Shown: piece by piece, positions 33,599 to 52,472 of the stretch | How the letters are laid out: each line of letters starts with the position of its first letter | How positions within the stretch are numbered: the first letter of the stretch is position 1 | Assembly (NCBI GenBank): GCA_905116865.2 | Contig: CAJHNH020004557.1 | Span: forward strand, 1,657,677-1,721,676 | Direction of reading: 5' to 3' | Source: Candidula unifasciata | Lineage: Eukaryota > Mollusca > Gastropoda > Stylommatophora > Geomitridae | Length of the DNA: 64,000 nucleotides | Notes under the pieces: model-generated | The model's input: the letters and a program-made list of their open reading frames with translations, nothing else | Database searches by the model: none | What the model was told of the DNA's origin: nothing | Made by a program: the position numbers and the translations under genes

Positions 33599-33870
33599 TC
33601 ATACATGATGTGATGACATGCCCCCTGTTGCATGACCAGAACCACTGTAACCATTTTCAGTATTACCGTTGTTGTTGCCGTTTCTCGGCCTGCGCTGCAG
33701 AACTGATGAGGAAGAAGGAGCAGATGCTGATGAAGGGGAGGTAGAGTCCTTAAATGGACAGTCTGCTATCAAATGTTCCTGTGGATTTGCACTGGTGGCA
33801 CCTTTTTGGAAGAGGACCATGAGGGCACTTTGCTGCAATGTGGTTGGCAAAATCTCCGCAATTATAGCAT
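33599..33870 (-). CDS. lin-28: LIN28 homologue, last coding exon (zinc knuckles and C-terminus), with a +1 frameshift
   Basis: LIN28 is an RNA-binding protein that blocks maturation of let-7 microRNA; its two CCHC knuckles bind the GGAG element of pre-let-7. The exon follows the acceptor TTCTTGCAG. Its first A completes an Arg codon begun in the previous exon, giving R-CYNCGDFANHIAAKC, knuckle 1 (C-x2-C-x5-H-x4-C). PKRCHQC then opens knuckle 2. As written, the frame continues KSTGTFDSRLSI and stops. One base less between 33782 and 33790 would place EHLIADCPFKD in frame and give the expected C-x2-C-x4-H-x4-C. That second frame stays open through a Ser-rich, then Asn/Gly-rich tail to a TGA at 33599-33601. 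So this is either a real one-base insertion or a sequence error. The domain assignment is firm; functionality is not. Confidence 0.88.
33738..33744 (-). promoter_or_regulatory. let-7 seed match in the LIN28 coding exon
   Basis: The minus (mRNA) strand reads CTACCTC, complementary to let-7 nucleotides 2-8 (GAGGUAG). It is a 7mer-m8 site, followed by C rather than A. It sits just 3' of knuckle 2. let-7 repression of LIN28 is established in other animals; use of this site is inference. Confidence 0.45.
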
Positions 33871-33934
33871 CTGCAAGAATTCACAAATAATCGATCAATA
33901 TGGAACAAAATAATCAATTAGAGGACATTACACA

Positions 33935-34200
33935 GATGGTGCTATGCTAGCACAGTGGCTAAACGCTTGCCTGCTGGCCCTAGGATCTTGAGCTTTGAAC
34001 CCACATCCAGTCAGATTTTTTTCAAAACCTTTACTCTAAGATCAACTTAGCCTAAATGGGTACCATCTAATTTCGTAAGTAAAGTCGGCCAGCATATTTT
34101 GACCATAACACCCAATAAGTGCTAAAAGGACTATGAATATGAAAATAAGAGTCTAGTTGTACAGTATAGCACTGGTGTAAAAAGGATCCTTACTTTTCAT
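33935..34200 (+). mobile_element. SINE family C, diverged
   Basis: Head AGCACAGTGGCTAAACG with a weak B box (CTTTGAACCC), middle CTTAGCCTAAATGGGTACC and GTAAGTAAAGTCGGCC, end GTAAAAAGGATCCTTACTTTT. It lies in the LIN28 intron, antisense to the gene. Confidence 0.65.
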
Positions 34201-34254
34201 AGCATTAAAAGTATATGGTTAAGCACTAGCAAGGGAATCAAAGTCAATAATTTG

Positions 34255-34990
34255 AGAGCATGCATCTTCCCTGAAAAACCTGCACAAGGTAGGAAAGCTT
34301 GTGAGATACCTGCACAAGATGGGAGAGCTTGCGAGATACCTACACAAGGTAGAAGAGCTTGCGAGACACTTGCACAAGATGCAAGAGCTTGCGAGATACC
34401 TGCACAAGGTGCAAGAGCTTGCGAGATACCTGCACAAGGTGCGAGAGCATGCGAGATACCTGCACAAGGTGTGAGAGATTGTGAAATATCTGCACAAGGT
34501 AGGAGAGCTTGCTAGATATCTGCACAAGGTAGGAGAGCTTGCGAGATATCAGCACAAGGTGTGAGAGCTTGCTAGATATCTGCACAAGGTAGGAGAGCTT
34601 GCGAGATACCTGCACAAGGTGTGAGAGATTGTGAAATATCTGCACAAGGTAGGAGAGCTTGCGAGATATCAGCACAAGGTGTGAGAGCTTGCTAGATACC
34701 TGCACAAGGTAGGAGAGCTTGCGAGACACTTGCACAAGGTGCGAGAGCTCGCAAGATACCTGCACAAAGTAGGAGAGCTTGGGAGATACCTGCACAAGGT
34801 GCGAGAGTTTGCGAGATACCTGCACAAGGTGCGAGAGCTTGCGAGATACCTGCACAAGGTGTGAGAGCTTGCGAGATGCCTGCACAAGGTGCGAGAGCTT
34901 GCAAGATACATGCAAAAGGTAGGAAAGCTTGCGAGATACCTGAACAAGGTATGAGAGCTTGCAAGATACCTGCACATGGTAGGAAAGCTA
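34255..34990. repeat. Minisatellite, 30-bp unit, in LIN28 intron
   Basis: Unit GAGATACCTGCACAAGGTGC plus GAGAGCTTGC, about 24 copies. The period is divisible by three, so long frames stay open on both strands (up to 211 codons on minus), with no start context or conserved substitutions to suggest a protein. Confidence 0.95.
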
Positions 34991-35037
34991 ATCCTCACAA
35001 GCATGTCATAGGAGGCAACTAATTATGGGTGTTTTCT

Positions 35038-35205
35038 TTGAAGTCAGAGTGCATCTGCCTGAAAGGTGAGGAACCAACAGTCTGCATAAAAATAAGCCAG
35101 ATCTGAATAAAAAACTCAAGATCTGGAACAAAAGTATAAAGTGGATGAACAACCAGAACCTGCCACAGAGATTCAGAGCCAGTGAACAATAAGAAAAAGA
35201 AAATA
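35038..35205 (+). mobile_element. SINE family B, 3' part
   Basis: GAAGTCAGAGTGCATCTGCC, GGAACCAACAGTCTGCAT, then AACCAGAACCTGCC and GTGAACAATAAGAAAAAG. It lies between two minisatellites of the LIN28 intron. Confidence 0.75.
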
Positions 35206-35469
35206 TAAAATAGCAAGGTCTGAGATCTTTAGAGAAATACAATGATCGCCTCTGGCATTAAGTAAGTTATTTGGTGATTATTCCAGCTTTGAATCAATGA
35301 ACAGGATATCATTCCTGTGGGTATTTTAATTAAAACATCAAATGCTTTCATAAAGCACTCACTGATTGTTGATGTAGATACATGTTGGAAGCATTAACAC
35401 TGATACAAAAATCTAATTTCGATATAATCTCATCCGTTATTAAAATATTTGTCACACTTTATCATAATC

Positions 35470-36600
35470 TAAACAAATATTAACACACTTGTCCAATCTT
35501 AACCAATACTGAGACACGTGTCCCATCTTAACCAATACTGAGACATGTGTCCCATCTTAACTAATACTGAGACATGTGTCCCATCTTAACTAATACTGAG
35601 ACATGTGTCCCATCTTAACCAATACTGAGACACTTGTCCCATCTTAACCAATACTGAGACATGTGTCCCATCTTAACCAATACTGAGATACTTGTCCTAT
35701 CTTAACCAATACTGAGACACTTGTCCTATCTTAACCAATACTGAGACACCTGTCCAATCTTAACCAGTACTGGGACATGTGTCCCATCTTAACCAGTACT
35801 GAGACATGTGTCCCATCTTAACCAATATTGAGAAACTTGTCCCATCTTAACCGATGCTGAGGCACTTGTCTCATCTTAACCAATACTTAGATACGTGTCG
35901 TATCTTAACCAATACTGAGACACGTGTACTGTCTTAACCAATATTTTGATACGTGTTTCAACTTAACCAATACTGGGACATGTGTCCCATCTTAACCAAT
36001 ACTGAGACAAGTGTCCCATCTTAACCAATACTTAGATATGTGTCCTAACTTAACTAATACTAAGACACTTGTCCTACTTAATCAATACAGAGACACTTGT
36101 CCTATCTTAACCAATACTGAGACACCCGCCCTATCTTAACCAATACTGAGACACCTGTCCTATCTTAACCAATACTGAGACACTTGTCCCATCTTAACCA
36201 ATACTGAGACATTTGTCCTTTCTTAACCAATACTGAGACGCTTGTCCAATCTTGACCAATACTGAGACATTTGTCCTATCTTAACCAATACTGAGATGCT
36301 TGTCCAATCTTAACCAATACTGAGACACTTGTCCCATCCTTACCAATACTGAGACACCTGTCCCATCCTTACCAATACTGAGACACTTGTCCCATCCTTA
36401 CCAATACTGAGACACTTGTCCCATCCTTACCAATACTGAGACACCTGTCCCATCCTTACCAATACTGAGACACTTGTCCCATCCTTACCAATACTGAGAC
36501 ATTTGTCCCATCTTTACCAATACTGAGACGCTTGTCCAATCCTTAACCAATACTGAGACACTTGTCCCATCCTTACCAATACTGAGAAATCTGTCTCACC
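35470..36600. repeat. Minisatellite, 29-bp unit, in LIN28 intron
   Basis: Unit ACTGAGACACTTGTCCCATC plus TTAACCAAT, about 39 copies. Left-hand units carry CTTAACCAAT; a right-hand block (36330-36600) carries CCTTACCAAT, a separately homogenised subarray. Confidence 0.95.
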
Positions 36601-36649
36601 TCAATCAATATGAAAGCTTCAGCAATACTGACCAGTATTCATATCACTG

Positions 36650-38575
36650 TAAAGAATGGCCAAAGTTGTGGTTGTGAGGTTTACCTCACCACAGAGAAAG
36701 AGCCTGATGTGTGGTTCTGAAGGGTTTCTAACTATAGAGTAGTCAGATGTGTAGTTTGTCTCACTATACAGAACAGTCAGATGTGTGGCTATGAGGTTTG
36801 TCATACTGTAGAGGATTGTCAGATGTGTGGTTGTGAGGTCTGTCATACTGTATTGAACAATCACGTGTAGTTAAAAGGTTTGTCTCACTGTAGAGAACAG
36901 TCAGATGTGTGGTTATGAGGTCTGTCTCACTGTATTGAACAATCACGTGTGGTTGTGATGTTTGTCTCACTGTAGAGAATAGTCAGATGTGTGGTTGTGA
37001 GGTTGTTTCACTGTAGAGAACAGTCAGATGTGTGGTTGTGAGGTCTGTCTCACTGTAGAGAACAGTCAGATGTGTGGTTGTGAGGTTTGTCTCACTGTAG
37101 AGAACAGTCAGATGTGTGGTTGTGAGGTCTGTCATACTGTATTGAACAATCACATGTAGTTAAAAGGTTTGTCTCCTCACTGTAGAGAACAGTCAGATGT
37201 GTGGTTGTGAGGTTTGTCTCACTGTAGAGAACAGTCAGATGTGTGGTTGTGAGGTTTGTCTCACTGCAGAGAACAGTCAGATGTGTGGTTGTGAGGTTTG
37301 TCTCACTGTAGAGAACAGTCAAATGTGTGGTTGTGAGGTCTGTCTCACTGAAGAGAACAGTCAGATGTGTGGTTGTGAGGTTTGTCAACCTGTACAAAAC
37401 GGTCAGATGTGTGGTTGTGAGGTCTGTCTCACTGTAGAGAACAGTCAGATGTGTAGTTGTGAGGTTTGTCTCACTGTAGAGAACAGTCAGATGTGTGGTT
37501 GTGAGGTCTGTTTTACTGTAGAGAACAGTCAGATGTGTGGTTGTGAGGTCTGTCTCACTGTAGAGAACAGTCAGATGTGTGGTTGTGAGGTTTGTCTCAC
37601 TGTAGAGAACAGTCAGATGTGTGGTTGTGAGGTCTGTCTCACTGAAAAGAACAGTCAGATGTGTGGTTGTGAGGTTTGTCAACCTGTACAGAACGGTCAG
37701 ATGTGTGGTTGTGAGGTCTGTCTCACTGTAGAGAACAGTCAGATGTGTGGTTGTGAGGTCTGTCTCACTGTATTGAACAATCACGTGTGGTTGTAAGGTT
37801 TGTCTCACTGTAGAGAACAGTCAGATGTGTAGTTGTGAGGTCTGTCTCACTGTAGAGAACAGTCAGATGTGTGGTTTGTGAGGTCTGTCTTACTGTAGAG
37901 AACAGTCAGATGTGTGGTTGTGAGGTTTGTCTCACTGTAGAGAACAGTCAGATGTGTGGTTTGTGAGGTTTGTCTCACTGTAGAGAACAGTGAGATGTGT
38001 GGTTGTGAGGTCTGTCTCACTGTAGAGAACAGTCAGATGTGTGGTTTTGAGGTTTGTCAACCTGTACAGAACGGTCAGATGTGTGGTTGTGAGGTCTGTC
38101 TCACTGTAGAGAACAGTCAGATGTGTGGTTGTGAGGTCTGTCTCACTGTAGAGAACAGTCAGATGTGTGGTTGTGAGGTTTGTCTCACTGTAGAGAACAG
38201 TCAGATGTGTGGTTGTGAGGTCTGTCTCACTGTAGAGAACAGTCAGATGTGTGGTTGTGAGGTTTGTCTCACTGTAGAGAACAGTCAGATGTGTGGTTGT
38301 GAGGTCTGTCTCACTGTAGAGAACAGTCAGATGTGTGGTTGTGAGGTCTGTCTCACTGTAGAGAACAGTCAAATGTGTGGTTGTGAGGTCTGTCTCACTG
38401 TAGAGAACAGATGTGTGGTTGTGAGGTCTGTCTCACTGTAGAGAACAGTCAGATGTGTGGTTGTGAGGTCTGTCCACTGTAGAGAACAGTCAGATGTGTG
38501 GTTTGTGAGGTTTGTCAACCTGTACAGGACGGTCAAATGTGTGGTTTATCTCACTGTAGTGGGAGGTAAGTGTGA
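36650..38575. repeat. Minisatellite, 42-bp unit, in LIN28 intron
   Basis: Unit AGAACAGTCAGATGTGTGGT plus TGTGAGGTCTGTCTCACTGTAG, about 45 copies. Marker variants (AACCTGTACAGAACGG; GTATTGAACAATCACGTG) recur at multiples of 42, such as 294 bp, so a higher-order structure exists. The 42-bp period leaves frames open on both strands (199 codons plus, 238 minus). The array ends about 100 bp from the splice donor at 38680. Confidence 0.95.
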
Positions 38576-38680
38576 GATGAATTTATCTCACAGTGACCAA
38601 CAGCAGCACCCCCTACCCAAACCCATAAGCCACACAAGAATTTACATACGTCTATTACATCTTTAGCAGACACCACATAC

Positions 38681-38853
38681 CTGATTTTCCTGGGTTTCTT
38701 CCGGGACATAGGTCGCCGGTCGCTTCCCTTGCACTCCTGGCCCCCGATCCCGCACACAAAGGTTGCCTCCATCCCTTGGCTGGAGGGCTTACTCTCAAAC
38801 TCCACACGTTCTCCCTCGGCCAGGCTGCGGAAGCCGCTCTTGAAAATGGTGGT
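38681..38853 (-). CDS. lin-28: LIN28 homologue, internal exon (second half of cold-shock domain)
   Basis: The 173-nt exon starts in phase 0 after an acceptor CCCCCAG and ends with AG before the donor GTATGTG; the AG joins A of the next exon to make Arg. Translation starts TTIFKSGFRSLAEGERVEFE, continues SKPSSQGMEATFVCGIGG, and closes CKGSDRRPMSRKKPRKI. GFRSLxEGExVEF ... GxES/T ... GSxRRP is specific to LIN28; Y-box proteins have a different loop here. The final basic stretch corresponds to the linker that joins the cold-shock domain to the zinc knuckles. Reading frame and GC content are clean, with no decay. The acceptor's pyrimidine tract is a C22 homopolymer. Confidence 0.95.
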
Positions 38854-38877
38854 CTGGGGGGGGGGGGGGGGGGGGGG
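38854..38877 (-). other. Splice acceptor whose pyrimidine tract is a C22 homopolymer
   Basis: Sense strand: 22 C residues then AG, directly before the exon at 38853. Homopolymers of this kind vary in length and are poor binding sites for the usual U-rich-preferring acceptor factor. Confidence 0.75.
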
Positions 38878-38899
38878 TGGGAGAAATAATTACCAGATG

Positions 38900-38975
38900 T
38901 CATACGTGTGTGTGTGTGTGTGTGTGTGTGAGCAGAAAAGGGGGGGGGGTGGGGGTGTGTGTGTGTTGGCAAATA
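38900..38975. repeat. (GT)n and G-rich tract
   Basis: A GTGT run at about 38904-38931, a G10 run and a second GT block. It lies just 5' of the LIN28 acceptor in the gene's orientation. Confidence 0.85.
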
Positions 38976-39339
38976 AATTTTACCCTTTTGCAAATGAATT
39001 CACCATTTTGCAGAAGTTTTACTACAACAATACTTTCTTGATCTTTTGCAATTTAAAAAAGAATATGCAATTCAAATTCAAATTCTCTTTCTTTGACCAC
39101 TTTCAGCTAGGTCGGTTCACATTTCTGCTCACTTTCCTTTCAGCTATATTTGTGGTGACGTTTTCTGGTCGCGATCTTATTTGATTCTGGATTGTGTTTA
39201 ATGTTGTCACTTTCTGTTTGTTGTGGTTTCCGCTCTTGCTGTTGTTTTTGTAATCTGGCTGGCCCTGTGCTGCGCTCAAGATGATTGGATGTTGGATCGA
39301 TTTATTGTGGTATTCCTTGGCTGTTTGTTGTTTCCGGTG

Positions 39340-40715
39340 AAAGTAGATTGCCTATCCTAATAAGGACCGGCGGTCGATTGACTTGGGCAGGTACTGATGG
39401 CTATACTGCTGAGGTCTGGTATTATTTGGCGATTTTCTCGTATCCTTGTTGTAAAGTACTGCTCCTACATAGGGTTTCGGTAATTTGGCCTTGGTTGTGT
39501 CGTATCTGGTATTAGTGTTTGGGGTAACGGTGTCGACCTCGTTTGACTTCAAATTTTGGCTGTCGATGTGGTTCTTCTGGTGATGACCAAAAGACATCAT
39601 CATCCTGCAGTTCTGAGTTATAGAAGTTCGGGTCCTCCATCTCCATGATGCGTTGGTTAATTTGGTCAATTGTTGCCAACGGAAACTGTTTCATCAGCGA
39701 TGCCTGAGTTTTCTTATCTGGTGTTTGATGCGGCTTTTTTTCTGGGTCTCGGCTCCCTGTATTTGCTGCCTTCTTGTTGCCTCTTTCCGTGCTTTTCTCT
39801 CTTTCTTCCATCACTCTGTTGGTTGCTTGCAGTTCCCTGTTAAGTCTGTTGTTTTCTTCGTAGCTCTTCGTAACTTTTCCTCTGTTTCAGCCAGTGCCTT
39901 CTTGATCATTGCGACTTCTTTCGCGAGAAGTTGTTGGTTATCCCGCAGATCATTGATGACCGCCTCGTCTTCCCTTGCCTTAGTTGGTTGTTCCTTTTGT
40001 GTCTGGATAGTGGCCAGTGCATTCATGATGTCCTCCTTGAATTTTGTCATCTCTGCTGTCATCCGTTTTCTGGGTGTCAAGAGTCGCCTGCATTATAGCT
40101 CTCAGGCCTGTTATTTCATCTCTGTCTTCATCTCGTTGGGTTTTGGATGCGTCTTTTTCTCGTCTCTGAGAGCTTGGATGTCACTTTTGAGTTGAGCCAC
40201 CTCGTTGCTCAATTTGGTGGTAATGGCTGCAGTTATGCCTTGGGTTGCTTCGTGTCTTCTGCGGGCCTCATGGAATGGAATCTTATCCCGTATGGCCGTG
40301 GTTGCAATTTCTCTACATTGTTGCAGATAGGGGCACCCCAGGTACCTGGTGCTGTGCTGGCCGTAGCAGTTGGCGCACTTTCTGTTCGTATTGGGTGACT
40401 TAAAGTCTGTGTCCAGCTTTGCCAGCGGGCAATTGTTGAAGGCATGGTGTTGTGAACAGTATCGGCATACTTCATGTTCGCTCACACAAGTGGCCCGGGA
40501 GTGCCATGCTTTTTGGCAACGAGAGCACTGGATCACCTGTGGCACGTATTGCTCTGGTCTTTGCATTCTTTGATCTAGGTAGACTTTATCCGGGATGTTT
40601 TCTCCTTCCGATGTTATCACCGCCACTGGCAATGGATGCCGTTTTGAGCCCAGTCTCTCTGCTTGGTTGATGTTGACATTGGAGTTTTCTTTCCTTATTT
40701 GTTGCTATGCAATGA
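39340..40715 (-). pseudogene. LINE ORF1 (CCHC gag-like) relic in LIN28 intron
   Basis: The minus strand encodes VAVITSEGENIPDKVYLDQR, then three zinc knuckles CSRCQKAWHSRATC, CRYCSQHHAFNNC and CANCYGQHSTRYLGC. This is the nucleic-acid-binding ORF1 layout of Jockey/I-type LINEs. After a frame change comes a coiled-coil-like helix (EDEAVINDLRDNQQLLAKEV, MIKKALAETEEKL). Two more frame changes lead to LMKQFPLATIDQINQRI and PKPYVGAVLYNKD. At least three frameshifts and no start make it a pseudogene. No pol follows in the same orientation, so it is not joined to the RNase H relics at 42278 or 43718. Confidence 0.85.
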
Positions 40716-41156
40716 AAGTGGTTGAAATTTAAATACTGCAGACAAGTGTGAATTTGATCTACGAAAAGCAGTTTCATACACGAGGAGAAACAGTCCGGCA
40801 GACAAACCACTGATCTATCTGCAACTTATAGCCCTTTAAATGCTGTCCCAGAACGGACCCACTGTAGAGAGGAACACAAGTTTTTAATAAACATAAAGAC
40901 AAAAATGAAAGGAGTACAGTAGAACCTCGCTTAACGAGCACCTCTCATAACGAGTAATTTGCATTACGAGCAAAACAAATTGTAAAAAAAAATCACTTGC
41001 TTAAAGAGCGACGTTTTGCATAACGAGTGTGAGGAGAGGGGGAGTTCTGAACTGTGGGCATGTTACAACAGTCTGTGTTTAGCACTCGTTCCAGTAGCAT
41101 CGTAGTGTCGCTTGTGATCACACATTTTCTCAAACACTTGTGTTACATTGTGATAT

Positions 41157-41343
41157 ATGTACATGAATCCTCCAGGCCTACAAGATGACCTCCCTGAAGA
41201 ATATAAGTTCATCGAGATCCAGTTTATGCCGCCCAACACCACTCCGTTACTCCAGCCTATGGACCAGCAAGTTATTTCTGACTTTAAGACGCTCTACACT
41301 AAAGGACTCTTCGAGCGTTGTTTTCATCTGACTGAAGGGACCA

Positions 41344-41439
<96 letters not shown>

Positions 41440-41983
41440 GATTTTTGGAAAAATCACTTCCACATTGTTGCCTGTCTCAAGATGATCGACAAGGCGGGCG
41501 ACAGGGTTACAAAGAAAGATCCTAACTTTTGCCTGGAAGAAGCTTTGGCCGGAGAGCGTTGTCGAATGTGACTTTGAAGGGTTCGAGACAGTACCTGAGG
41601 AACCTGTAGTCAACGAGATTGTGTCTTTGGTCACTATCATGGGATTGTAGGTGGATAACAGTGATATCGAAGGCTTGTGGAAGAGCACAGCCAAGAGGCT
41701 GACAACCGAAGAGCTTATGGAGTTGCATTGTGTTTCACAGCAAGATGTTTTGGAGGAAAGTTTGTCAAAAGGGGTAACAGAAAAGCAATAATCTTCTGGC
41801 GAAATAAGAGAAATGCTGAATGCATGGGAAACTGTTGCATCTTACATTGAGAAGCATCACCCTAATAAGGAAGTAGCTATGCGCGTTGCAAATTTATTTA
41901 ATGAAAATGCTGTGTCGCATTTTCGCCAAATTTTGAAGCGTCGGCAAAAACAAATGTCTGGACATCTTTCTAGTAAAAAATAA
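41157..41983 (+). pseudogene. Tigger transposase C-terminal half, split by a CT microsatellite
   Basis: Translation starts near NPPGLQDDLPEEYKFIEIQF, then MPPNTTPLLQPMDQQVISDF, the last part of the DDE catalytic core (the PPxTTxxLQPxDxxVxxxFK motif). A CT repeat (41346-41437) interrupts it. DFWKNHFHIVACLKMIDKA then resumes in another frame. Later, after a frameshift and stops, come CDFEGFETVPEEPVVNEIVS, EIREMLNAWETVASYIEKHH, and AMRVANLFNENAVSHFRQIL, ending at a TAA. Full-length Tigger transposases carry an N-terminal CENP-B-type helix-turn-helix and two earlier catalytic aspartates, which are missing. Dead copy. Confidence 0.9.
41346..41437. repeat. (CT)n microsatellite inside transposase relic
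   Basis: About 45 CT dinucleotides inserted between the residues TEGTN and DFWKNHF of the transposase, where no such tract belongs. Confidence 0.95.
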
Positions 41984-42277
41984 TTAGCTATGTATCATTA
42001 TATTTCGCCTTTTTTTTTATTGAATTCGCATTCCAGGTGGGTACGTTCCGGGGTGGAAGAACAGATGAAGATGATTCACTTTCCTTAACAATATGTAAAT
42101 AGTTTTCTTTGAATAAACATTATACATAACATTTTGTGAGTATTTTTTCGACATGGAACGCATTATCATATTTTACATTAATTTATATGAGAAAATTTTT
42201 TTCGCATAACGAGTGTTTCGCTTTACGAGTATGATTCTGGAACGAATTAATGCTCGTTTAGCGAGGCTCCACTGTAT

Positions 42278-42990
42278 TTGAAAAGGAAGAACAAAATAGT
42301 GTGCAACGTAAAACAGCGGCCCAAGGTCTACCTGATGATGAATGCCCGCTGCATCTTTGGGTTCGTGTTTACATATAGGTCAGCACAAAACGCATGCAGA
42401 AACGGAGGAGCAGGAGTGTACACTGAGAACCCTAATGACGCCAAGGGATATAGCCTAAATAGCCAGGGGAAAGCACTGTCACAACTATGATGCAGAAGTT
42501 CAAGCCATCAAGACAGAAGCTGAGCTACTTCTAAATAACGAGTTTATTTGGACACTACTTTCTGAACTAGGCAGCTGGGCCAGGTAGCTATGCAACTGAT
42601 ACCGTCCTACTGTGGAGTTCCCGGAAATGAAAGAGGAAATAAAACTAGCTAAGGGAGGTGCGACTGAAGAACCTGGCGTTCAAGATCAGCAGAAAAAGAA
42701 TATATCAACTCAATTAGAAAGCCACCAAAACTGGCACAAGAACTTTCCATTTTATGGACAGGCCACGGGGCAGAATCGACTTCGCAGCCATGTGCACAAT
42801 CGGACTGGCACCTCAGGCAACATTTTACATCCTTCAAGACTGTCCCAAATACATTTTGAGGCGAAACTTCTGGCCAAGAGAGACACTAGTGGGAACCCGA
42901 AACTTTACGGGCCGCTTGGTGAATTGCAAAAGACAGGGAAGTTCGTAGTATAGACAGCATTGCAGATATAGATAATTTATTTCAAACGAA
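42278..42990 (+). pseudogene. LINE pol RNase H and C-terminal fragment
   Basis: The plus strand shows FVFTYRSAQNACRNGGAGVY (RNase H first strand; the catalytic Asp of YTDGS is replaced), then QLIPSYCGVPGNER (the HCGVPGNERAD helix), later SIRKPPK, a decayed EHVLQDCPK counterpart and IADIDNLFQTNERRRRR, ending in GAAAGAAGAAGAAGAAG. The last block matches the minus-strand relic at 8955. Several frameshifts. It abuts the Tigger element, which probably inserted near its 5' side. Confidence 0.78.
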
Positions 42991-43204
42991 CGAAAGAAGA
43001 AGAAGAAGATCTGCAAAAGAAAATTTGGCGTGACAATCACGCGCGCACAAAGTCCTCATCTTAAATAAACATCAATAACACACAAACAATGGTTTCAACA
43101 ACAACAAAATGCCAAACTGTGAGATCAATGATTATACTAGAAGAGGAAATTGTCAACCAAAAAGTTCAAATATTTAAGGGGAATAATCATAAAAGGTAGA
43201 GCTG

Positions 43205-43450
43205 CAACAGCATAGTTGCTAGAGGTTGATCTGCCGACCTGATGGTTTAGCAGTTCAAATCTGCATCATTTTGTTTTTCGAAATCAACCGCTGCTCACAG
43301 GTCGACCCCGCCTTAAATAGGCATCAGGTAATGACCTGGGAAGTAAAGGCGACTAGACTGACTTGATTAATGTTTACCACATAAACTACCGATTGGTCTG
43401 TGTAAAATGTCTAGAGCCCGATGGATCAAATACATGAAAAGAGGCCTTTG
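43205..43450 (+). mobile_element. SINE family C, diverged
   Basis: Head with AGTTGCTAGAGG and CAGTTCAAATC (degenerate boxes), middle CCCCGCCTTAAATAGGCATC and GACCTGGGAAGTAAAGGCG, then ACTACCGATTGGTCTGTGTA. Confidence 0.65.
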
Positions 43451-43717
43451 AATTAGTGTTTGAAACAACATCAGAACGAGGCTGAGGCTGTATGACCTAG
43501 ATTTACAACAGACCAGGCCCACCAAAAGCTGCCTTTCAGAAGATGCACAAAATAACGCAAATACATATTAGCCATAATTTCTACAAGATGGGTGTAGCTT
43601 GCGGTACGATCTGTTTTTACCCTATGTTCACGCACATTCTGTTCTTTTCTTTTAGGCGATCACCAAATGTGAACTAAGGACAGATTGATTTGATTTGGTT
43701 CAAGAACCGACATAACA

Positions 43718-44440
43718 TCACTCGGGGCATTCCCATAAGCGCTCTGTCCCTATCTTCAGCAGCCAGCAAAGAGTTCCGATACTAATGGTGCCAGTAGCAT
43801 TCTGATTAAACGTCCGTTTTGCCTTTCCTCTGAGCTTCGAGCATCTGCCAGAACCTCTCGTCACTCCCCCCTGCATCCATCTCACCAGACTGTGGTGATC
43901 CATCTGCTCCTCCGAACTGTACACGCTCTCCCTCAAGGCACTAACCACGTCTGGTTTATCATGTATCAGTATTCCACCAAGTTGTGCAGACCCAGCCAGT
44001 CTGTCCGCTTGTTCATTTTCCAACACACCGGCGTTCCCCGGTAAAAATCCAGACAATACTCCTCAACCGTGTCCTCCGCAGCGAAGCATGCCACTCTGCA
44101 CGAAGCATACCTGTTCTAATCTTCCTCAGCATGCTTTCTTAGTCAGTTACAATAACGATGTGTGTGTGTTGTGTTCTCTAGCCAACGGCAAGCTGCAGTG
44201 ACCGCCTCCACCTCCATTCTTAAGCTGGATGTTGTGGTATCATATGCTAGGTTCTCCTGCACCAAACGTCGACCATAAACTTTTGCTAAGAAGCCCAAGC
44301 ACTTATTTTTGCCTCTTGACACTGAACCGTCTGTGTAAATGATCAAATCCTCTGAGCGAGCATTATCTTGAATTAACTGCTGAATATCCACCTCTGTGGC
44401 ACCTGCTGGCCGGTCTCTGCATTTCCGGCTCAGCGTGATT
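43718..44440 (-). pseudogene. LINE RNase H domain relic, sense with LIN28
   Basis: Minus-strand translation: LIIYTDGSVSRGKNKCLGFL (catalytic Asp in YTDGS), YDTTTSSLRMEVEAVTAACR (catalytic Glu in the helix), then after a frameshift GNAGVLENEQADRLAGSAQL (catalytic Asp in ExADRLA; the usual His is replaced by Asn), followed by GGILIHDKPDVVSALRES and SLVRWMQGGVTRGSGR. The order and motifs are those of the RNase H found in I/Jockey-type LINEs. RT is absent on the 5' side. Confidence 0.82.
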
Positions 44441-44454
44441 CTGACTACACAATT

Positions 44455-44580
44455 AAGGAAAGAGAGATAGACGAAGACAACAACAGAACATTCTCGACAG
44501 CCTTGTATCATGCTACAGTAGAAAGTTCTGGTTGAAGAAGAAGAGGAAAAAGAAGATGAAGACAAAGTTGAAAAAGATGA
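44455..44580 (+). pseudogene. LINE 3' end scrap preceding GAA tract
   Basis: The plus strand reads ERDRRRQQQNILDSLVSCYS, matching RDRGRQREKILDSLV of the LINE at 59070, then runs into GAAGAAGAAGAGG. The large GAA tract that follows may have grown from this element's tail. Confidence 0.5.
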
Positions 44581-44628
44581 CAAAACAGAAGAGGAGGAGG
44601 AGGAAAGAAGTGGAGGAGGAGATAGAGA

Positions 44629-44670
44629 AGTAGTAGTAGCAGTAGTAGCAGCAGTAGTAGCAGCAGCAGC

Positions 44671-44730
<60 letters not shown>
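44629..44730. repeat. (AGT/AGC)n trinucleotide repeat
   Basis: AGT triplets with AGC variants in the left part. Confidence 0.93.
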
Positions 44731-44731
<1 letters not shown>

Positions 44732-44740
44732 AAAGAAAAT

Positions 44741-45153
44741 GAAGAAGAAGAAGAAGAAGAAGAAGAAGAAGAAGAAGAAGAAGAAGAAGAAGAAGAAGAA
44801 GAAGAAGAAGAAGAAGAAGAAGAAGAAGAAGAAGAAAAAAGAAGAAAAAGAAGAAAAAGAAGAAAAGAAGAAGAAGAGAAGAAGAAGAAGAAGAAGAAGA
44901 AGAAGAAGAAGAAGAAGAAGAAGAAGAAGAAGAAGAAGAAGAAGAAGAAGAAGAAGAAGAAGAAGAAGAAGAAGAAGAAGAAGAAAAGGAAGAAGAAGAA
45001 GAAGAAGAAGAAGAAGAAGAAGAAGAAGAAGAAGAAGAAGAAGAAGAAGAAGAAGAAGAAGAAGAAGAAGAAGAAGAAGAAGAAGAAGAAGAAGAAGAAG
45101 AAGAAGAAGAAGAAGAAGAAGAAGAAGAAGAAGAAGAAGAAGAAGAAGAAGAA
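44741..45153. repeat. (GAA)n trinucleotide tract, 413 bp, in LIN28 intron next to the splice donor
   Basis: About 135 GAA triplets with a few A-rich interruptions (44835-44880, 44993). On the LIN28 sense strand it is (TTC)n, beginning about 9 nt after the donor at 45163. Long GAA/TTC tracts form triplexes; the FXN intron repeat is the known parallel, in the opposite orientation. Confidence 0.97.
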
Positions 45154-45163
45154 ACTAACTTAC

Positions 45164-45282
45164 CTGATGTACGAACACATCCATGCCACCATCATCTGGT
45201 GTGATGAACCCCCATCCTTTGGCTACATTGAACCATTTACAAAAGCCCTGTCGTCTCACCGGGCCACCACCTCCTCCCCCGC
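45164..45282 (-). CDS. lin-28: LIN28 homologue, internal exon (first half of cold-shock domain)
   Basis: The 119-nt exon follows the acceptor TTTTTGCAG and is followed by the donor GTAAGTT. It begins with two bases (GC) completing a split codon, then reads [11 protein letters not shown] and [20 protein letters not shown], ending GMDVFVHQ in phase 0. FCKWFN opens the first beta strand. GWGFI is the RNP1 motif and DVFVHQ the RNP2 motif; both contact RNA bases through aromatic side chains. DVFVHQ joins TTIFKSGFRSL of the next exon without a break. The Gly stretch corresponds to the flexible region before the domain. The preceding exon, which must end one base into a codon, was not found in the window. 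Taken alone this exon would also fit a Y-box protein; the next exons fix it as LIN28. Confidence 0.94.
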
Positions 45283-46600: not shown

Positions 46601-46698
46601 CCCAAACGGGAGGTCGTAAAACTGTTTTTAAAGTGTGCAATCTCTTTTGGTCGTACTCCTTGTTTAAGAGGACCATCGAACTAGTATTTTATACATGT

Positions 46699-47839
46699 GT
46701 TCTTGGTACTGGATCTGGAAAAGGCATTTGACAAGGTACCCTGGAACAAGCTCTGGGACTGCTTGGCAGGGAAAAACATCCCAGCACCCCTGATCAGTGC
46801 AATACAGAGTTTCTACAAAAAGTGCAGAAATTATGTAAGATCAGCAGACCAAAAGTCAGAAGAATTTAGGACCACCAGCGGTGTTAGACAAGGTGATATT
46901 CTCTCACCTTACCTCTTCATTCTTATGATGGATGATGTCATCAAGACCTGTAAGGAGAAGACAAAGAAGTACTCTGTAGGGTACTGGAAGATGAGACCAA
47001 TCTGTATATCAGAGCTGGCTTTTGCAGACGATGTGGCCCTGATAGCTAAATCAGAGGCACACCTTCAGTCCAACTTACTTGTCTGGAAGGAAGAGCTTGA
47101 AAAGAAAGGGATGACCATCAGTGTCTCCAAAAACTAAAACCATTGGTGATCTCAAGAGAGGAGAAGAAAACACCAGATCATGATGGGACAGTATGCGTTG
47201 GAGCAGGGTAACCAGTTCAAATACCTTGGAGCTGTATTAGACCAAAATGGAGGCATTAAGACTGAACTGGCTACACGAAAAGCAGCTGCTGGGAGACTCT
47301 TCCAGGCCATAAACCGAGGGTTTCTTAGCAAAAGAGAAATTGGCAAGAGGACGAAAATGGCTGTTTACCGCTCTACCTATGTACCAGTCCTGACCTATGG
47401 GTGTGAGTCATGGGCAATGACAACAGCTCACAGAAGCCAGCTGCAGGCCTCGGAAATGAGATACCTGAGAAAGGTGGTCCAAGTGACAAGAAGGGACAAA
47501 GTCCGCAATTAGACAATACGTCAAGATCTTGATACCCAGCCCTTACTAACCCGAGTGGATCAGTCACAGTTACGATGGTTTGGACATGTGTGCAGAGTGG
47601 GAGAAAATCGGCCACCATGGCAAGCATGGGAGGCTAAGAACTAGGGAACCAGACCTCCGGGACGACCCAGGGTGCGCTGGGAAGACAACATCCGACAGTC
47701 CCTGACTGACAGAGGACTGGAATGGAACAAAGCCAGAAAGAAAACTGCTGATAGAGACGTCTGGCGATCTCTCTGGCAAACCTCTACACCCCAAGGTAGA
47801 AGAGGAGCGACTAAGTAAGTAAGTAAGTTCTTGGTACTG
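46699..47839 (+). mobile_element. 5'-truncated LINE with 13-bp target-site duplication and (TAAG)n tail
   Basis: GTTCTTGGTACTG occurs at 46699-46711 and 47827-47839 and brackets the element. It starts inside the reverse transcriptase: LDLEKAFDKVPWNKL (palm Asp), TTSGVRQGDILSPYLF, ELAFADDVALIA (FADD catalytic box). After in-frame stops near 47137-47150 it continues QFKYLGAVLDQNG, VLTYGCESWAMTTAHRSQLQ, QLRWFGHVCRVGE, GRPRVRWEDNIRQSL and DVWRSLW, all in one frame apart from two more stops. The tail is TAAGTAAGTAAG. A short tandem-repeat tail is typical of RTE-like elements, but the clade is not certain. The intact duplication and near-open frame point to a recent insertion. Confidence 0.93.
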
Positions 47840-49847: not shown

Positions 49848-52472
49848 CGTCGGCGTCTGTGGCTTAGGCGTTGTGAACGCGATTCGTAATGCTGGGGTGC
49901 CGGGTTCGATCTATGCTGCGGCGCAGCAAGAGTCCACCGATCATCAGAAGAAAGATTCCTCGTCGACGACTGTTTCGGCCCATTAGTTCCTATATAATCT
50001 CGGAAGGTGGGCTGACCTGGTTCATGACTCCAGGCCTCGATCTTCCCCTGCTGCACTTTTATCAGACGTTCGGACAGGGACAAGACAACATGGTGACTTT
50101 GCAATAGGTGTCGTGAGATTAGGTGTAATATATTGTAGGTGCATTAGCGAATTAGCCAGCTGCCTTCACGACCAAAGTGACAAACTTACGGTTGGTTCAT
50201 CGAACAAATGTTAGACTTTAGCATTTGGCAGTGACACTGGAAGACATTTATCAGGCACTTTGGCTTTAATAGATGAAAAGCTCTTTTATACTAAAAGCTC
50301 GGACCAGTCTACCAAGGCCTATTCCCTCCCGACGTTCCGTTGTATCCACAGCCAGCCGAAAGCCCCTTCAGCCGCCTTGTCCTGCTGTTTTAGCCACCTT
50401 TTACGCTCTTTTCCTCGCAGGCCTAGCTGCTTTATACATTGTATGTGGAAGCAGAGATAAATCCTCTTGCACCTACCTCAACGGCGAAGATTTTTACTGT
50501 GTACGCTTCATCTTCCTCAGACCGACCACCAGCTCATCGTACTTTTCGAGCCTGTACAGGTGATATTCTTCCATCCGCGTCTTGTACGGCACGGTCAGTT
50601 CTATCAGTATGCCTTAGCATTTTCCCACAGAGTTCAGGACCATGTCTGGTCTCAGGTCGGTCTTTCGAATTGATTTTGGGTACTTTTCGAAACCAGGCAG
50701 GTCAGCTGCCAGTAACCAGCCCCTCACCCAGTCAAGTATTGGAGCGTATGCGACCTTGTTGACTATACCCTTAGAGACCTGCCCAGTGTAGAGGAAACGC
50801 ATGGGGGGGGGAGAGGGGAGACTGGCTCTCGCGTTGGCCCTCATCCTGGCTTGATTCATAATGTTCGCTAGATCTTTCAGGACTTTATTGTGGCGCCATG
50901 TGTTTCGTCCCTGGTCTAGGACTTTTCTGCAAGCGGATAATAGGTGTTCGAGTGTCTGCTTAACTCTGCATAGTGGACCTGTCGGATAAGTGGTCGCACG
51001 ACAACTGACCATGTTGGCGCCAAAGGGCAGATCTTGTGGCAAATCTCAGCAGCAGTGGGACCATACGCCAGATCTCACACCATGTGAGTATTCTAGGTAA
51101 GGTGCTCTCGAGGCTGATTAACTGGCGTTGCTGTGACTGCTACGCGACATTTTTTTTTACCCAAGTCTCTCCCTTATATGCTGTATTACCATGTATCTGC
51201 GTTATTTGGCCGACGCTTTGGACCATCAAGCGACTTTTCCCTGCCCTCGGCCGCGTTGGTCGGTTTGTATGTGACCCATGACTTTCTTCAATTTCAGTGC
51301 TTTCTGGGCAGATTCTATTGCACCCAGGACCTTCCATTTCTTACCTGTCTCAAGAGCGGGTTGGACAGCTGCCACCGTAGGGTTCGAAGACTTGCGTAGC
51401 ATCATCGCAAGTTTTACCTTGCCGACTTTAAACTCTTCGATTACTGATTGAAACGGATGTGCCAGCTTAGCTTGCTGACAATAAAAAGCCACATCGGTTA
51501 GACAAGGCGGTGCGCCAAGCAACTTCCTCATGGCTGTGTTGACTTTTTCCTCCATAGTCCCCACTGCGGTCATGCATAATTCATACATGAGCAGTGGTCA
51601 GAGGAACTTTGGAATCAACATGAACTGGATAAATCAAACTTCGAACTTCATGATCAGCCTGCATTGCTCGATAGCCAGCAGGTCTGTAGCCAGTGACTGA
51701 TGTAAACGCCAGACCGCCGCTCTGTCAGATAACTTCGAATCGTAGACGCGGCCGAGGCACTTCCAGAACCGTTGGGAACCTTTTCCTTGCCACCGTGAAA
51801 CTGATTGCCGCTACTTGACCTTTAAGGATGGACAAACCTCTTGATTTCTGCGGCTCAAACTGCATGCCGCACCATTCGACCACGCTGTTCAGCCTCTGCA
51901 AAATTACGGGGGCATGATCCTTACTGTCAGTTATGATAGTGATGTCATCCATAAATTCACGCAGTGGCGGCATCCAGGGGTCAAAATTTGAAGGCCTCGA
52001 TAATAGCCGGCAGCCGAGTCTAACACGACCTGAAAAGCCATAACGAACAGTTTTTGCGAAATCGTAAATCCCATTGCTATCCCAACCTGGAGCTCTGTCC
52101 ACCTCGTAGTAAACATGGGTGTAGAGAAGCGTATGGCGAACTTTGATAAATATTGCTTGATCATTTCGGCGATCTGTGTCGATACGTGGAACATGCGAAG
52201 GGCCTGCCATAATAGCTTATGGGGTACCGCCCCATTGGCGTTGGGGAGGTCAGACCGTATCACATGCAATTCTGTTCTCTCTGCCTTAGCTCTCTGAATA
52301 GATTCCCAGATCATGGTCGCATGCTCAAGACATGCCGGTGTAAAGAGGCCGACCGTCCAGAAGCAATGACAAACTGCCTTATGTAAATTTGCCGAGAAAA
52401 AAGCCACAACAGCCAAAAAAAAAAAAAATGCTGGGGTTGGTTCTGCAATGACCAGTTAAGGATACGCAAGTA
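49848..52472 (+). mobile_element. SINE family A split by a 2.4-kb LINE
   Basis: The head (49848-49918; TGTGGCTTAGGCGTTG A-box region, B box GGTTCGATC) breaks off after CTGCGG. The tail resumes at 52349 with GCCGACCGTCCAGAAGCAATG and ends GGTTCTGCAATGACC...GGATACGCAAGTAAC. About 45 bp of SINE is missing between. Confidence 0.75.
49920..52348 (-). pseudogene. LINE pol relic: reverse transcriptase plus restriction-like endonuclease
   Basis: Minus strand, 5' to 3': TPACLEHATMIWESIQRAKA, LHVIRSDLPNANGAVPHKLL (palm Asp), IAMGFTISQKLFVMAFQVVL, then REFMDDITIITDSKDHAPVI (the MDD catalytic box in place of FADD), MQFEPQKSRGLSILKGQVA. Further on come TAMRKLLGAPPCLTDVAFYC, TLEHLLSACRKVLDQGRNTW and LRPDMVLNS, followed in another frame by LIELTVPYKTRMEEYHLYRL. 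RPD...ELTVP is the PD-(D/E)XK pattern of a restriction-like endonuclease placed after RT, as in early-branching LINEs. It ends near GPKQSSTRNLSSDDRWTLA at 49930. Many frameshifts; 5' truncated. Confidence 0.8.

Follow-up and report, generated by a model that had tools for sequence, protein, structure and literature searches.

The question raised by this locus is whether three exons, lying on the minus strand of a repeat-rich stretch of snail DNA, encode a complete lin-28 protein. When we searched the literature for lin-28 in land snails, no publication on it was found among the titles listed, and lin-28 proteins predicted for Bradybaena and Biomphalaria are present in the protein collection. 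Within the window (by which we mean the whole stretch of 64,000 nucleotides that was analysed, and which is free of any N), the three exons were inspected directly and then joined by script. We are confident that together they make up the bulk of the coding sequence of a lin-28 orthologue, and that the assembled copy of this gene is broken by one base in its second zinc knuckle (Table 1).

Table 1. Positions of the lin-28 exons, of the frame break and of other recognised features in the window.
Feature	Position	Strand	Content or basis
lin-28 coding exon 1	45164..45282 (119 nt)	-	Gly-rich stretch and N-terminal half of the cold-shock domain, with two split-codon bases
lin-28 coding exon 2	38681..38853 (173 nt)	-	C-terminal half of the cold-shock domain, followed by the basic linker (TTIFKSGFRSL...RKKPRKI and 2 nt)
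lin-28 last exon, part before the break	33780..33870	-	Knuckle 1, linker and the initial Cys pair of knuckle 2 (CYNCGDFANHIAAKCPHGPLPKRCHQCKST)
One-base frame break	33778..33780	-	Approximate to the base; 33779 falls in neither tblastn piece; exon translations
In-frame TAA closing the literal reading	33750..33752	-	Translation; stop-to-stop frame ends at 33753
Next-frame continuation	33599..33778	-	Remainder of knuckle 2 (EHLIADCPFKD), tail to HHV, TGA at 33601-33599
Reverse transcriptase fragment	46685-47137	+	PF00078, 1.2e-23
Weaker reverse transcriptase	51725-52455	-	Below Pfam cut-offs
RNase H-like piece	about 44146-44409		Below Pfam cut-off

A sequence-only reading had placed the exons at 45282-45164, 38853-38681 and 33870-33599, with joins in phase 0 following DVFVHQ and in phase 2 within the Arg codon preceding CYNC. 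Both the borders and the phases were borne out at the splice sites: all three intervals are preceded by AG, the first two are followed by GT (GTAAGT after exon 1 and GTATGT after exon 2), and the same phases were obtained when the exons were joined. In exon order, the acceptors are TTTTTGCAG, a tract of 22 C followed by AG, and TTCTTGCAG, the last exon (272 nt) being entered through TTGCAG. The polypyrimidine tract of the exon 2 acceptor (38856-38877) is thus an uninterrupted run of a single base. When the Bradybaena similaris protein BsWGS_27904 was compared with the window by tblastn, 41/44 residues were identical over exon 1 (45283-45152, slightly beyond the exon) and 56/59 over exon 2.

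The assignment of these exons to LIN28 was upheld on several counts. The joined product matched the Pfam cold-shock domain (CSD; PF00313) with an E value of 8.5e-23, its nearest relatives among the proteins listed are lin-28 proteins, and its best match among solved structures is LIN28A (chain 8ops_B), at 126.4 bits over the CSD and both knuckles. The two proteins have the CSD, the basic linker and two knuckles in common, but the CSD loop of LIN28A is seven residues longer, and its knuckle 1 is CX2CX4HX4C rather than the CX2CX5HX4C of the snail. The possibility that a Y-box or CNBP family would be preferred was checked and LIN28 was favoured, since the best Y-box protein among the solved matches (Y-box-binding protein 2) scored 58.1 bits and no molecule named CNBP occurred among the 53 solved matches. 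The protein search returned 499 proteins at E ≤ 0.001, the best 120 of which were named either as lin-28 homologues or neutrally (hypothetical, CSD domain-containing, unnamed product etc.); the top eight of these 120 were all gastropod. Among the matches listed, identities were 91% and 85% for the two proteins of the land snail Bradybaena similaris, 84% for the "Protein lin-28 homolog" of the freshwater snail Biomphalaria glabrata, and 75% and 81% for sea slugs. Of 36 stretches in prokaryote contigs, checked as possible DNA of relatives, none encoded a lin-28 relative.

The basic linker and the first CCHC knuckle were recognised by alignment (RRPMSRKKPRKIRCYNCGDFANHIAAKC), with 31/31 residues identical to Bradybaena from RCYNC onward. 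Knuckle 1 itself (33825-33869), which was matched by none of the Pfam knuckle models, has the X5 spacing found in nine other molluscan proteins aligned. The knuckle 2 arrangement, CX2CX4HX4C, is present in all 120 listed homologues (the best 120 of 499), 119 of which were counted by pattern; P0115 was added separately, as its first knuckle, starting CFNC, escaped the pattern.

The matches to the lin-28 exons are not due to chance. All six-frame pieces no shorter than 12 residues were scored, with no filters, against a profile of 19 lin-28 proteins from molluscs and one brachiopod, the window copy not being among them. The piece from exon 2 scored 107.6 bits, that from exon 1 71.5 bits, the last exon before the break 71.0 bits and the continuation after it 29.6 bits. 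All four pieces above 7 bits therefore fall in the lin-28 exons, the next-best piece in the window reaching 6.3 bits. When the window was dinucleotide-shuffled 30 times, the top-scoring piece of each shuffle reached 3.5-12.6 bits.

It had also been proposed from the letters that the three exons together give a LIN28 CSD, basic linker and zinc knuckles. This is true of the CSD, the linker and knuckle 1, but not of an intact knuckle 2 or C-terminus. The last exon is not one open frame; rather, it shifts by one base after CHQCKST, around 33779. tblastn with BsWGS_27904 accordingly splits the exon into 33872-33780 in frame -3 (31/31 identical) and 33778-33602 in frame -1 (47/60 identical). Read in the frame of the CSD and knuckle 1, the joined exons end in ...CHQCKSTGTFDSRLSI and a stop, 9 codons past the break, and the proposed exon end, 33599, belongs to a stop codon in another frame. 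The literal product, in which the second CCHC knuckle is not found in one reading frame, is without the metal-binding His and the last Cys of that knuckle; it would retain the CSD, knuckle 1 and, from CHQC, the His. The Pfam model for the second knuckle of Lin-28 (PF21890) was matched only when the translation was read across the break (30.1 bits, against a cut-off of 27), and not in the literal frame. No further lesions were seen in the three exons. In ancestry, the gene is a lin-28 orthologue of the ordinary kind, and its literal assembled product is without part of the second knuckle.

We lean towards the view that the break would be an error of the assembly. The rest of these exons shows no decay, which points either to an error or to a very recent break. 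Before the break (RRQGF to CKST), 116 of 119 residues are identical to BsWGS_27904 and 115 of 119 to Biomphalaria, so that the core barely discriminates between these two relatives. The tail does more: after the break, 46/58 residues are identical to BsWGS_27904, and the C-terminal end (HHV) is the same, compared with 35/50 for Biomphalaria and with 39/56 between the tails of the two Bradybaena proteins. On this protein similarity, in the tail more than in the core, we take the window to come from a pulmonate snail, most likely a stylommatophoran land snail or slug. Since three core residues of 119 differ from Bradybaena and the tail is open and conserved, the whole protein would have been fully constrained by selection until very recently, or would be so still if the assembly is wrong. 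The tail is open to the homologues' own end, and an old pseudogene would hardly have kept such a tail. Homopolymer slips are the commonest kind of long-read error; the break lies outside any homopolymer longer than two bases, and this kind of error therefore fits somewhat less well.

A genuine and very recent loss, through a young disabling mutation or allele, is a distinctly weaker candidate, though one that deserves serious consideration. The break would then be genuine, whether fixed or carried by an allele, and might affect one member of a lin-28 pair retained after the land-snail genome duplication; it would leave a truncated protein with the CSD and knuckle 1. The position of the break outside a long homopolymer speaks for this explanation, as does the presence in Bradybaena of two lin-28 proteins, encoded on contigs that differ in length. 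BsWGS_27904, which matches the window copy over 97% of the query, shares its domains, but has a continuous second knuckle. The probable second duplicate, BsWGS_13061, likewise shares these domains, with changes of its own (e.g., LTPYDGG, HVAAK and CHHCK). In Biomphalaria, too, the frame is continuous. Duplication on a larger scale is described in PMC12328838, which reports a genome duplication common to land snails and slugs, with duplicated BUSCO genes at 16-21% in 10 Stylommatophora versus 0.54-1.5% in the other molluscs tested; this duplication is also stated in the Bradybaena genome paper (PMC12042801). Loss of one of two lin-28 copies after the land-snail duplication is thus possible. Against a genuine loss stand the conservation of core and tail described above, which indicates selection until very recently, and the phylogeny, which ties the window copy firmly to neither duplicate. 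By path length, it is nearest to BsWGS_27904 (0.11 vs 0.18), whereas in the best tree its partner was BsWGS_13061, at a weak support of 65/69; a grouping of the window copy with BsWGS_27904 (p-AU 0.155) was not rejected, and the same held for a group confined to the two Bradybaena proteins (p-AU 0.116). No land-snail group was recovered in this tree, in which the Bradybaena proteins and the window copy were not separated from sea slugs.

Because the stop falls within the final coding exon known, nonsense-mediated decay may spare the mRNA should the break be genuine. It is unlikely, in our estimate, that one of two duplicated lin-28 copies has just lost knuckle 2 and survives as a protein of CSD and knuckle 1; were that so, a let-7 regulator would have been caught losing its GGAG-reading half. 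More generally, a real break would offer a natural test of LIN28 without its second knuckle, and of the fate of a heterochronic gene after genome duplication.

Programmed +1 ribosomal frameshifting, for which the antizyme genes provide a parallel, could in principle restore knuckle 2, given that two conserved frames abut at the break. We regard it as very improbable: from KRCH to HLIADC, the protein is continuous in all nine molluscan relatives aligned, RNA folding from the break onward is no better than that of shuffles (z -0.22), and we know of no slippery or stop codon at the break. That the exons belong to another cold-shock protein of the Y-box or CNBP type, or to a processed pseudogene, can practically be dismissed, as the CSD is shared with Y-box proteins but the LIN28A match extends across the CSD and both knuckles, and a processed copy is excluded by the 6.3 and 4.8 kb introns, whose splice sites are intact. 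A short intron hidden at the break was also considered and rejected, since each upstream exon GT paired with an AG there would remove part of the knuckles.

How proteins of this family act is set out in PMC3759924 and PMC6488673, according to which the CSD of LIN28 binds and remodels the let-7 precursor loop, the knuckles recognise the loop's GGAG through the G at positions one and four, and the complex blocks Dicer and recruits the uridylyltransferase TUT4/7, so that let-7 stays low. By analogy with this family mechanism, the intact snail protein would bind let-7 precursors. Reading of GGAG by the literal product should fail, given the missing His and Cys of knuckle 2. In terms of annotation, a well-known developmental regulator is now placed in a repeat-rich snail locus, with the caution that its assembled copy could be recorded as a truncated gene.

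The seed match for let-7 is CTACCTC and that for lin-4 is CTCAGGG. In the 6 kb past the stop, there is one CTACCTC (27780) and no CTCAGGG. Across the whole window, CTACCTC occurs three times on the minus and four times on the plus strand, about as often as length alone predicts (~3.9 per strand), and there is accordingly no case for let-7 or lin-4 feedback sites. One CTACCTC (33738-33744) is located in the coding tail, just past knuckle 2.

The exon carrying the start codon is probably outside the window or codes for a peptide other than that of the relatives. BsWGS_27904 begins with MAT and seven Gly, and one Biomphalaria isoform similarly starts with MAT and Gly residues, while BsWGS_13061 starts MTTLLS. 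With a MAT-Gly start, a Bradybaena-like start exon would hold only about ten coding bases. The start expected from the Bradybaena MAT-Gly sequence, ATGGCNACNGGT, was absent from the 18,718 bases upstream, nor could the first exon of BsWGS_27904 be located in the window. Upstream there are six short ATG frames in phase 1 that end at GTRAG, only one of which starts with Met-Ala (46185-46179). This candidate was attributed to chance; it runs directly into a GA repeat behind a poly-G tract.

The surroundings were surveyed through the 54 stop-to-stop frames of at least 120 residues in the window; 19 of them in full, and part of one more, were compared with Pfam (E ≤ 0.01). Three frames matched reverse transcriptase, two of them below the cut-off, and 16 had no match; the partial frame matched RNase H just below the cut-off. 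No neighbouring host gene was recognised among the scanned frames of at least 120 residues, shorter frames having been searched with the lin-28 profile only. A search with one frame of a likely mobile element gave 63 candidates, none of them at E ≤ 0.001. Neither tRNAs nor Rfam families at the gathering score were found in the window. Tandem repeats are frequent in 30000-64000, the half that was scanned for them. The intron preceding the last exon is made up largely of such repeats (34278-38546), with units of 30, 29 and 42 bases in ~24, 39 and 43 copies, respectively, and some of these repeats are open in frames on both strands. Finally, a TTC/GAA array of ~142 units (44733-45153), with TTC on the lin-28 sense strand, starts 10 bases past the end of exon 1; long intronic GAA-TTC arrays impede transcription of the human frataxin gene.
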